Translations under genes and position numbers: made by a program
Assembly: GCF_042453785.1 (NCBI RefSeq)
Contig: NC_091675.1
Coordinates: 3,174,501 to 3,238,500 of the forward strand
DNA: 64,000 nt
Source: Malus domestica
Taxonomy: Eukaryota; Streptophyta; Magnoliopsida; Rosales; Rosaceae
Reading direction: 5' to 3'
Shown here: positions 55,349-59,494 of the stretch, piece after piece
Layout of the letters: every line of letters begins with the position of its first letter
Position numbering within the stretch: position 1 is the first letter of the stretch
Notes under the pieces: generated by a model
The model's input: only the letters and a program-made list of their open reading frames with translations
The model's database searches: none
Told to the model about the DNA's origin: nothing

Positions 55349-55719
55349 CTGAATGCTGATAGCTACCTGCCACTGCTTGCCTGAGAATCGATATAGAATT
55401 GCGGTGTTTGATACGTTTGTTGTGCCCTGTATTCATTTCTCTTCAACCCGAACGTCCCTAAAAATATAAGAAACGAAGAAAGATCTTATTTGATTTATTT
55501 TTTGTAACTACATTGTATGATTTTGTGTATTATTGCTCTAGTTTCTCGCTATTTTTGACATATCTTGTAATTTTTAAACTTTTTAACTTGACGTTACATT
55601 TAGTTTCTCGTTCATTGTTCTCTTATTGATTATATAATGTCACTCTCCGAGCTTAAATGCTTGGGTTAGTAGCGCACGAGCCCACGGAGGTTGATCTTGG
55701 CCATTATATTTGTGGAACT

Positions 55720-56401
55720 TGTTGATGCACACCATATATTGGGCCTCATAAAAAAATACTTGGGGGACCTAGCCTATCATTTTTTGTATTGAAGAGCGAA
55801 CTTTTATTCTATAAAAGGGACTCCTTCACCCTTAAACGCCACAAGTCGAGCCAACCAAAGCAACATAAGCCACAAACAGAGTAGCCTCGCAACATGTGCT
55901 ACTTCTGGTTAAGCATCATTTCACTTTGAGCATTGTCTCATATCAAGTATTAGTTCAAGACGACATCTAGTTACTTTGGCCCACACATAGACTGAATTTC
56001 AAGTCTCCAGCCAAAAGACTCTCTTGACTGAAGACTTGGGGGACTATTGTTTGTACCATACTTAAGGTCTCCGTATAAATACTCGAGGGACTCAAATGTA
56101 ATTATGTAATAATGGAAGGGGCAAATATGTAAAAAGGGGATGAGCCCTTATTCTATAAAAGGGTCTTCTCACCCTCATAAACCGAAAAGGCTCAGAAGCC
56201 TCCTCACATCCCCTAAGCTCTAAGCTCTCTGAAAGCCCTCATTCTCATATTCAGAGCTCTCTCTCCCTCAGAAATACAATATAAATGTGGACGTAGCCCA
56301 AACATTGGGGTGAACCACGATACATCTTGTGTTATTTACTTTCTTGCAGATTCACGGTCGGATTTACGTTATTCTAATACCTCCAGTTTTGTGCATCAAC
56401 A
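55720..56401 (+). repeat. 5' LTR of the gene-carrying element
   Basis: 682 bp with two promoter-like strings TTATTCTATAAAAGGG (about 55803 and 56150), a downstream GTGGACGTAGCCC block and the CATCAACA end. The shared CCATATATTGGGCCTCATAA start matches the 3' LTR. Confidence 0.75.
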
Positions 56402-56699
56402 TTTGGCGCCGTTTGTGGGAAACGACACGAAAAGCTGTGTCGGTTTCTCTCTCACTTTTTCACCTCCGCCGTGGATCTGCAAAATCTGCAAAATCCAAGA
56501 AACTAAACACCTACAGAATGGCAGAAGAGAACCCGAATATTTAGGGGAGATAAGGACCCAGATCTGCAAATCCACCGAGACAGAACCTCTCTCTCTGTCT
56601 CTGTCTCTCTCTCTCTCTCCCCCTCGTATTAGCATATTGCAGCCACAAACCAAGTACTTCCATAATCCTGGGCCGTGACTTCACAATGGAAACCAAGTA

Positions 56700-57160
56700 T
56701 CAGACCACAGAGGCTGACTCGGCTTCGCTATATGCGCCAAGTGCTGCGACTCCAGCTTCACCACCAAGCTCCAGAAGCCTTTCCTCCTCGACTCCCCTTC
56801 CATAGCGCTCTCATGGTCCGCCTTTAGCCAGCTAAGGCGGCTCCTGCCAGCAACGGAGGCCTCTCCGTCTCCACGTCCGCCAACGGCTTGAACTCCTCGT
56901 ACGACTTGAGCGCCTTCAAGTTCGACCCCATCAAGGAATCCATCGTCTCCAGGGAGATGACTAGGCACTACATGACTGACATGATCACTTACGCTGACAC
57001 CGGCATCGTCTTAGTTGGTGCTGGCTCCGCCGGGCTCTCATGCGCCTATGAGCTCAGCAAGAACCCCGACGTTCAGGTCGCCATAACAGAGCAGTCCGTC
57101 AGCCTCGGTGGCGGTGCATGGCTCAGTGGCCACCTATTATCTGCCATGGATTCGGATCCC
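56700..57160 (+). other. Captured fragment of THI1/THI4 (thiamine thiazole synthase)
   Basis: The sequence encodes the N-terminal part of the plant thiazole synthase: transit-peptide-like sequence, then [29 protein letters not shown], and the dinucleotide-binding [17 protein letters not shown], then [11 protein letters not shown]. It stops before the catalytic C-terminal part, so it is a fragment. THI1 makes the thiazole half of thiamine in plastids. It lies inside an LTR element and has no THI1 promoter. Confidence 0.88.
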
Positions 57161-57530
57161 AAACCCCATACGACTTCCAGGCGACCCGCGAGAAAATCCG
57201 GTCAATCGACCCAGAACCCAAAAGCTTTAATTATTTTCAGAAAACGAAGGAAACAATGAAGGGTAGAATGAAGAAGTATAGCCAAGTGAGTCCGAAGAGG
57301 GCGAAAGTGTGGACTGAGAAGTCACCCAGGTACCATCAGAACCGCAAAGTTCCTGTGGTTTACTATCTTTCTCGAAATCGGCAACTTGAACACCCGCATT
57401 TCATGAAGGTTCCTGTAACCTCTCCCCAAGGGCTCTACCTTAGAGATGTGATTAATAGACTTATTTGTGACTTCGATCCTCACCAGACTGCGGTCGCCGC
57501 CACCCAACTCTGGTAGGCCCAAACCGAGTC
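57161..57530 (+). other. Captured fragment of a SOSEKI (DUF966) gene
   Basis: Reads GRMKKYSQVSPKRAKVWTEK, then the SOSEKI DIX-like domain start KVPVVYYLSRNRQLEHPHFM and GLYLRDVINRL. SOSEKI proteins are plant polarity proteins that polymerise by this DIX-like domain. Only the N-terminal part is present, joined directly after the THI1 piece, so two unrelated host genes lie next to each other. Confidence 0.85.
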
Positions 57531-57539
57531 TGGCTCATC

Positions 57540-57770
57540 TCGGCGCCTCTACAAGTCTCCCGCCCTGGCAGCAATACCATCATGTAGAAGCCAGAGTCGG
57601 TCAGAATTCAGCAAAGCAGCAAGAGCTGCCGAAGCTCTTTACCTCCTCCGAGACACCTACTTCCCAGCCGACCCGGATGACATATTCTCCAGATTAAACG
57701 CTGATTCCGATCTTGCCCTCAGCCTCCTCGATTCCATACCTCTTGGGAAGATCAAAAGGGGGATGTGGGT
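57540..57770 (+). other. Third coding-like fragment, unrecognised
   Basis: A plausible protein stretch reads AARAAEALYLLRDTYFPADP, then DIFSRLNADSDLALSLLDSI. It reads like part of a helical plant protein rather than a chance frame, but I cannot name the gene. It follows directly on the SOSEKI piece. Confidence 0.4.
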
Positions 57771-58224
57771 TGTCGAATCAGTGAGGACTTTATCAAAGAG
57801 TTTTCAAGTTAGAAAAGATGCTCTACACATTGAATTTCGTCGAATGTGCTCTGCACATCGTCTTCACTTTTGGCTGGAGAATGGGCTAAACGTGGGCTGT
57901 GAGAATATTTAAGAAAAAGAAAAAGGGAGGCTCTCATCGAGAGCATATGGGGGACAATGCAAAAGAAAAAGAAAGGGAAGACCTAGGAGGAAGATAAAGT
58001 TTCCTTACTTTAAAGTGATGTAATTTACTTTTCTTATCTTTTGCAGACATCTGTATAAACCCCATCAGAGGGTAGTAATAAAAAATTAAAAACAAAAAAC
58101 GGCAAGCCCAAAATAATGGACAGGAATGTTATGTGGAGGGCGAAGGCCCATATGCCCAAAAGAGCCAAACCCTCTATTATCGCCAACCAAGTGATCAAAA
58201 GTACGCCCAGTACTTCAAATTATA

Positions 58225-58815
58225 CATGAGCATTACTCATGTCAATCATACATAAACATTCATGAGCATTATTCATATCAATCATACATAAACATTCATG
58301 AGCATCACTCATGTCAACATTCATGAGCATCACTCATGTCAATCAACATAAACATTCATGAGCATCACTCATGTCAATCAGCTTCAAAAGCTTCATTTAC
58401 AGAGCTCTAGCTTCAAAAGCTTCATTTACAAAAGCTCTAGCTTTAAAAGCTTCATTTACAGAGCTTCAGCTTCAAAAACTTCATTTACAAAAGCTCTAGC
58501 TTCAAAAGCTTCATTTACAGAGCTCTAGCTTTGAAAGCTTCATTTACAAAAGTTATAGCTTCAAAAGCTTCATTTACAGAGCTCCAGCTTCAAAAGCTTC
58601 ATTTACAAAAGCTCTAGCTCTAGCTTCAAAAGCTTCATTTACAGAGCTCTAGCTTCGAAAGCTTAATTTACAAAAGCTCTAGCTTCAAAAGTTTAATTTA
58701 CAAAGCTTCAGCTTCAAAAGCTTCATTTACAAAAGTTCTAGCTTCAAAATCTTCATTTACAGAGCTCTAGCTTCAAAGCTTCACTTGCAAAGCTTCACCT
58801 ACAAAGCTTCAGTGC
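58225..58815. repeat. Two tandem arrays inside the LTR element
   Basis: First, about 58225-58380: units of 30-36 bp built on CATGAGCATCACTCATGTCA. Second, about 58385-58815: about fourteen units of roughly 30 bp built on AGCTCTAGCTTCAAAAGCTTC plus ATTTACA, alternating AAA and GAG spacers. Both are non-coding. Confidence 0.9.
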
Positions 58816-58920
58816 AGGGTATGCAAATACTGCATCTGAACAACCGCCACTTCGGCCCATACATGGATTCAATTTGAAGTCTCCAGCCAACAGACTCTAT
58901 TGACTGAAGATTTAGGGGAC

Positions 58921-59489
58921 TACACTATATACCATATATTGGGCCTCATAAAAAAATACTTGGGGGACTTAGCTCATTATTTATGTACTGAGGAGCGAGC
59001 CCTTATTTTATAAAAGGGACTCCCTCACCTTCATTAGAGAGCATCGCCGCCAGCTGAGCAACCGTCTCGCCGCGAGCATCATTCCTAACCCATCACTTAT
59101 GTATTGAGGAGCAAGCCTTTATTCTATAAAAGGGACACCCTCACCATCATTAGAGAGCATCCCCGCCAGCTGAGCAACCGCCTCGCCGCGAGCACCAACT
59201 CTAGCCCATCATTTTTTGTATTGAAGAGCGAACCCTTATTCTATAAAGGGGACGCCCTCACCCTCACAAACCGAAAGGCTCAAAAGCCTCCTCACATCCC
59301 CTAAGCTCTAAGCTCTCTCAAAGCCCTCACTCTCATATTCAGAGCTCTTTCTCTCTCAGAAATACAATATCAGTGTGGACGTAGCCCAAATATTGGGGTG
59401 AACCATGATACATCTTGTGTTATTTACTTTCTTGCAGATTCATGGTCGGATTTACGTTGTTCCAAGACCTCTGGTTTTGTGCATCAACA
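58921..59489 (+). repeat. 3' LTR of the gene-carrying element
   Basis: Matches the 5' LTR from CCATATATTGGGCC to GTGCATCAACA. A segment of about 120 bp with the TTATTCTATAAAAGGG promoter string and a CGCCAGCTGAGCAACCG box is tandemly repeated, giving three TATA-like sites (about 58996, 59116, 59237). Confidence 0.75.
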
Positions 59490-59494
59490 TAACT

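Follow-up and report, generated by a model that had tools for sequence, protein, structure and literature searches.

An apple LTR element with a patchwork of host gene pieces and its many-copied family

How does a single retrotransposon come to hold, side by side, pieces of several unrelated host genes, at least one of which has lost an intron? The question is raised by positions 55720-59489 of a 64,000-nucleotide stretch of apple (Malus domestica) DNA, here called the window, which corresponds to C15:3174501-3238500 in a searched genome of 651 Mb in 19 contigs. This segment is a non-autonomous long terminal repeat (LTR) element of 3.77 kb, and its interior is a chain of approximately seven host pieces with best parental identities of 88-96%. 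Multi-gene cargo with lost introns recurs among the sampled relatives of the element, and the evidence for this is strong. We consider it probable that the element belongs to a high-copy non-autonomous LTR family in which each copy has its own patchwork interior of host transcript pieces, assembled by RNA capture, template switching, and splicing.

An LTR element filled with pieces of host genes

The element starts with TGTTGATG at 55720 and closes with TGTGCATCAACA at 59489. It has the hallmarks of an LTR retrotransposon: TG..CA ends, a primer-binding site (PBS), a polypurine tract (PPT)-like block, and a target-site duplication, which is imperfect here (GAACT and TAACT, 4/5 bases equal) and perfect in sibling L055 on contig C17 (CTTTT on both sides). 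That sibling has a clean layout, with 371-bp LTRs that differ at 16 positions. The features of the window element are as follows (window coordinates, strand, description).

55715-55719, no strand: left flank, GAACT, one copy of the imperfect target-site duplication (the right-hand one, TAACT, is at 59490-59494)
55720-56401, plus: 5' LTR region; core at approximately 56048-56401 by match to the sibling LTR
56402-56500, plus: PBS TGGCGCC (from 56404) and family leader, called from sequence
56593-56714, plus: piece 1, with a CT-rich start; best matches are three loci on contig C3 (best 88%)
56722-56771, minus: piece 2, 50 nt of an ATP synthase delta (OSCP; ATPD) gene, antisense to the element (96%)
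56758-57148, plus: piece 3, THI1 (Thi4) exon 1, up to the parental 5' splice site (93% to C11:31358030)
57149-57223, plus: piece 4, 75 nt from the 5' part of a pentatricopeptide repeat (PPR) protein gene, between THI1 and SOSEKI (92% to C15:17472866)
57207-57466, plus: piece 5, SOSEKI exon 1 and the first approximately 20 nt of exon 2 (95% to C11:13514806)
57483-57569, plus (probably sense): piece 6, from a gene at C10:26214866 without a Pfam match (89%)
57612-57746, plus: piece 7, from a gene matched six times in the genome (90-94%); it is the first exon and runs up to the 5' splice site
57815-57896, plus: family sequence 3' of the cargo, common to many elements
57990-58930, plus: family 3' tail, which contains tandem repeats (29/59 bp and 36 bp) and closes with a PPT-like GGGGA
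58929-59489, plus: 3' LTR region, in which tandem 116-bp units (58981-59266) repeat a TATA-like motif of the TTCTATAAAAGGG type

The first-pass annotation had described matching LTRs around an interior devoid of gag and pol. The match holds for the 3' ends of the LTRs (21 differences at 259 aligned positions, 91.9% identical) and the 5' ends (100 bases, 87% identical) and fails in their differing middles, so that the pair is not collinear. The part of the 5' LTR region that precedes the core (55720-56047) resembles the family 3' tail, including a copy of its PPT-like block, which thus occurs twice, at 55973-56047 inside the 5' LTR region and at 58849-58930 ahead of the 3' LTR. Long, non-collinear LTRs such as these could have arisen by initiation at a duplicated PPT. 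The 116-bp units of the 3' LTR region, also represented at 56142-56166, give approximately three TATA-like copies there, and multiplication of the promoter by these units is possible. The 29/59-bp tandem array of the tail, AGCTTCAAAAGCTTCATTTACA, occupies 58380-58794 and is seen in many fetched relatives.

The claim that gag and pol are missing was upheld. Neither was found in the window element, whose two open reading frames (ORFs) tested with Pfam returned Thi4 (1.6e-24) and SOK (2.7e-16), nor among the longer ORFs of relatives (43 sense and 20 antisense, Pfam), and the element is accordingly classed as non-autonomous. Membership of the Gypsy superfamily is defined by pol domain order or reverse transcriptase phylogeny; no pol was found, and the TGGCGCC PBS may point to a Gypsy lineage and to its putative primer tRNA. 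The window contains no tRNA gene with which the primer could be matched, and blastn (1e-5) found no further copy of the element elsewhere in the window.

Cargo was called from searches of the apple genome with three slices of the interior, combined with local alignment, parental flanks, parental frames, and Pfam. The two Pfam matches establish the THI1 and SOSEKI fragments that the first-pass annotation had named, with a possible third, as neighbors; the pieces are more numerous than this, and the PPR piece separates the two. The parents of the pieces lie on different chromosomes, and an origin of all pieces from one read-through locus was rejected for that reason. Matches are on seventeen large contigs, and the contig pairs 3/11, 5/10, 9/17, and 8/15 recur among the best of them, a pattern that would fit an apple-tribe plant. 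Piece 7 is presumably tetratricopeptide repeat (TPR)-like, an exon without a Pfam match.

Passage through RNA, as initially proposed, is borne out by the SOSEKI piece. Intron 1 is present in the parent (CTCAGAG/gtattc...ttgcag/ATGTGATTAATAG, slashes marking exon edges) and gone from the window (CTTAGAG/ATGTGATTAATAG, join at 57445/57446). The THI1 and TPR-like pieces are by themselves uninformative on introns because each lies within one exon; they stop at ATG/gtaatt and CTTG/gtaatt, respectively, which are parental exon ends. The PPR piece begins directly after an AG acceptor-like (cryptic) site of its parent. With cellular exon pieces between LTRs and introns absent, the element has the makeup of a gene-transducing, Bs1-like retrotransposon.

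Protein frames place the THI1, PPR, and SOSEKI pieces in the sense orientation, the donor does so for piece 7, and piece 6 is probably sense as well, with one piece antisense. At the joins, overlaps measure 14 nt (ATPD/THI1) and 14-17 nt (PPR/SOSEKI). The ORF at 56888-57259 holds both the THI1 and PPR pieces in native frame, and that at 57118-57516 holds SOSEKI in native frame and likewise piece 6, if the C10 frame with its initial Met is right; such agreement of phase is fairly frequent by chance alone. Over 86 codons, the THI1 piece differs from its C11 parent with nonsynonymous and synonymous divergences (dN and dS) of 0.052 and 0.127, values that are not diagnostic of coding function, and a function of any kind for the cargo, the chimeric or regulatory RNAs of the first-pass annotation among them, can be suggested only weakly. 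The antisense 50-nt ATPD piece also occurs in seven or more further elements among those fetched (L015, L016, L025-L028, and L057) and has therefore spread with the family.

Relatives with other cargo, and a recombinant origin

A first look with the leader DNA (56385-56530) gave 2,156 candidates, of which the best 40 were scored and all matched; the family copy number is accordingly rough. Interiors from leader to tail are mostly 1.1-1.9 kb long. A block of at least 900 nt common to no other of 48 compared interiors was found in 14 of 27 leader-selected interiors (25 loci). Large retrotransposon derivatives (LARDs) have a long conserved noncoding interior; here, interiors vary from copy to copy.

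Matches above the Pfam cutoff were obtained for 7 of 43 sense ORFs, in 6 of 21 leader-selected elements, and comprise M16 peptidase, glycoside hydrolase family 17 (GH17; two ORFs), MIOX, SWIRM, inositol-phosphate kinase, and RAM2-like acyltransferase. One of 20 antisense ORFs passed (DUF3444, in L081), in what was a smaller scan. Cargo was then traced in the six Pfam-positive elements and one Pfam-negative element (L085), all leader selected, and each of the seven proved to carry a run of three or more pieces whose best matches fall on different chromosomes. Multi-gene cargo is thus no peculiarity of one element.

By comparison with parental DNA, the MIOX piece has lost 3 introns (4 exons, in order), and in L072 a gene from contig C6 has lost 3 (4 exons) and the M16 peptidase gene has lost 2 (3 exons). 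Ordered, intron-free exons in L064, L073, L088, and L085 are indicated by the spacing of matches. Wherever parental exon structure is visible (SOSEKI, MIOX, the C6 gene, and the M16 gene), no intron is retained. At C9:14747797-14757828, the 3' part of the L085 interior is matched four times at intervals of exactly 3,289 bp, which has the look of a tandem array.

The genome holds other elements with the same pieces as the window copy, a check that the first-pass annotation had proposed, and the seven relatives searched for cargo carry other chains. THI1 and PPR occur together in L057 and L058, SOSEKI and piece 6 do so in L055 and L056, and piece 7 is found in L036. In each of these elements, a piece runs on past its breakpoint in the window. 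The SOSEKI piece extends beyond the window breakpoint by 19 nt (L055) or 275 nt (L056) further upstream, the PPR piece is approximately 30-37 nt longer downstream in both L057 and L058, and piece 7 is 44 nt longer upstream in L036. Since siblings carry longer versions of its pieces, we conclude, with strong support, that at least three cargo-bearing lineages recombined to give the window copy, with joins at short shared sequence. Given recombination among cargo-bearing elements, the window copy itself need not have captured all of its pieces. The initial idea of capture by this very element stands as far as an LTR element with cargo is concerned, and the pieces were brought together by recombination.

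Two further observations concern the siblings. The THI1 piece of L057 is interrupted by a 1.8-kb insertion (L057 2550-4362) with a 3-base overlap at the site, and most of the L057 interior is common to one other sampled interior, probably that of L070 by length. A second copy of the L064 cargo, at 87-91% identity, is located at C15:9671083-9672811; patchworks therefore propagate after assembly.

Piece ends, splice sites, and the assembly of the cargo

The ends of the pieces bear on how they were joined. One case is L082, where a C15-gene exon (cag/AAGAAG...CTCT/gtaag) is joined to a MIOX exon (cacag/ATTCTC) with zero overlap, that is, a GT donor meets an AG acceptor. The parental flanks of 39 piece ends from five elements (the window element, L082, L086, L072, and L064) were read. 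Twelve of these ends lie no more than 2 nt from a splice motif of the matching type that scores above a fixed cutoff (1.77 expected for random positions at the same loci), a count reached in 0 of 100,000 simulations; a control with donors and acceptors swapped gave 1. With a slack of 0, 5 ends coincide with splice motifs versus 0.36 expected and 0 in the control. This final version of the test used a fixed score threshold and four slacks, and its 39 ends include the two ATPD ends. Not counted among them are the 3' end of SOSEKI, ends that coincide with query edges, the unclear match at C6:722450 (L072), the C7 piece of L064 together with the outer ends of that element, and every end of L088, L073, and L085, whose parents were unread. 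The test was not blind, in that choices were made after several flanks had been seen and the splice weights were set by hand.

Nothing would make a fragment of mature mRNA stop at an exon edge, and this pattern therefore suggests, with moderate confidence, that joins were in some cases made within introns and that the resulting hybrid introns were later spliced from element RNA. L020 and L021 retain the PPR sequence upstream of the acceptor and the THI1-PPR elements lack it, which is in line with such splicing. An autonomous Gypsy-type element would supply the proteins, and RNA of the non-autonomous element would be packaged together with host RNAs and RNAs of other elements. Reverse transcriptase may then switch templates at short homologies, adding or swapping pieces. 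If the captured RNA were partly unspliced, joins internal to introns would create hybrid introns, to be spliced out before the next round. The outcome would be exons of unrelated genes welded at splice sites, as the C15-gene exon to the MIOX exon in L082 and, in the window, THI1 exon 1 to the cryptic acceptor in the PPR piece.

Could the same chains arise from mature mRNAs only, by switching among spliced host mRNAs and element RNA, with ends at exon edges owing to pausing, alternative transcripts, or chance? The missing introns, the majority of ends off splice motifs, and the short overlaps at several joins would all fit, and there is precedent in soybean terminal-repeat retrotransposons in miniature (TRIMs) that carry exons only (PMC4717578). 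We nevertheless regard it as unlikely, given the excess of ends at splice motifs (12 of 39 against 1.77 expected and 1 in the control) and the L082 join. Less likely still is capture at the DNA level, with genomic pieces acquired through break repair or recombination and introns lost later by splicing and copying of element RNA. It accounts for both the splice-site ends and the antisense pieces and is opposed by three observations: the window pieces are mainly sense (THI1, PPR, SOSEKI, piece 7, and probably piece 6) versus one antisense, 6 relatives have Pfam pieces in sense orientation against 1 with an antisense piece (from the smaller antisense scan), and zero introns survive in the four genes with visible parental exon structure. 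Stepwise transduction, in which read-through transcripts bring in neighboring genes singly, is the mechanism named for Bs1 (PMC13317346), yet with parents on several chromosomes it demands many landings, and recombinant siblings offer a shorter path; we judge it very improbable. That two unrelated LTR fragments flank a host-gene mosaic, or that the locus is an assembly artifact, is hardly credible: non-collinear LTRs and a duplication of 4/5 bases would be as expected, but the same leader, tail, and pieces are seen again elsewhere in the genome, including L055 with its 371-bp LTRs and perfect duplication.

The reading that we favor, RNA capture with template switching and splicing, has to contend with a number of contrary points. 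Its mobilizing partner can be proposed only weakly, and no autonomous partner was identified. Two pieces are antisense (ATPD in the window and DUF3444 in L081), and the Pfam rates of 7/43 sense versus 1/20 antisense do not alone prove a sense bias. Among the relatives, parents were read for none of L088, L073, and L085 and for four ends only of L064, and some "parents" may be other elements. A first version of the splice test gave 4/37 ends versus 2/37 in the control (Fisher p 0.048, binomial 0.11), a weak result because spurious short hits set some ends; a second version, with tighter alignment and the slack raised from 2 to 3 nt, gave 10/37 at the 5% level versus 1/37 (Fisher p 4e-5). In the final version, 27 of the 39 ends have no splice motif (exon-internal or none seen), and splicing covers only part of the pattern. 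No unspliced or hybrid-intron intermediate was found among the elements studied. A 2-nt overlap would also account for the THI1-PPR join, and the PPR acceptor falls within the open frame of its parent. The C15 donor at the L082 join (CTCT/gtaag) falls below the score threshold and outside the 12, and in L086 two blocks of one C17 gene, 784 nt apart, lack canonical splice sites.

Relation to known systems and implications

The closest parallel is Bs1 of maize, an LTR element that carries parts of three host genes (PMC13317346). It is described as one element with three transductions, whereas sampled copies of the large apple family vary in cargo and recombine. The same source reports template switching in cereals, and PMC11963269 cites transduction by Bs1 and also in rice and sorghum. 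Soybean GmaRetroS15, a TRIM, is similarly a small noncoding LTR element with pieces from three genes, intron-free exons, and 5-bp duplications (PMC4717578); that paper describes 30 gene-carrying TRIMs in seven subfamilies from Medicago and soybean, with exons only and one with three genes, and tabulates apple TRIMs, which are not among its named gene carriers. Gene-carrying TRIMs measure 1.17-1.45 kb, in contrast to 3.8 kb, more pieces, and per-copy cargo here, and on size (3.77 kb) we rejected assignment of the window element to the TRIMs. The TGTT/AACA LTR subfamilies of Rosaceae, with non-palindromic ends TG..TT or AA..CA (PMC5659011), were likewise rejected, as the LTR ends are TG..CA.

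Host genes within LTR elements are also the subject of the catalogue in PMC3726574, in whose consulted passages neither patchworks nor splice-site joins are mentioned. Template switching during reverse transcription has been proposed for complex Triticeae elements, which, unlike the chains of host exons described here, are fusions of two retrotransposon sequences (PMC1950507). Pack-MULEs carry host gene fragments too, with introns along with the exons, but are DNA transposons (PMC4717578). Neither "captur" nor "gene fragment" appears as a string in the main text of PMC11197308, on Rosaceae transposons, or PMC4668562, on pear LTR elements. No account of this family was found in full-text searches of an open-access literature library. 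Multi-gene capture by LTR elements is known in kind; as far as these searches reach, what is new is the scale, the patchwork particular to each copy, the recombination of cargo, and the joins at splice sites.

Exon shuffling by LTR elements has so far been argued from few cases. If our reading is correct, a high-copy family would make capture, switching, splicing, and recombination countable and datable within one genome. Spliced fragments of many host genes may then sit under LTR promoters, which in genomes of this type could give rise to small interfering RNA and to false chimeric gene models. It is quite possible, if somewhat short of probable, that the possibly two thousand or more elements act as a standing exon-shuffling engine, fed by partly unspliced host RNAs, mixed by recombination between copies, and welded by the spliceosome, in which each copy would have a chimeric transcript of its own and some, such as THI1-PPR, would be in-frame fusions.

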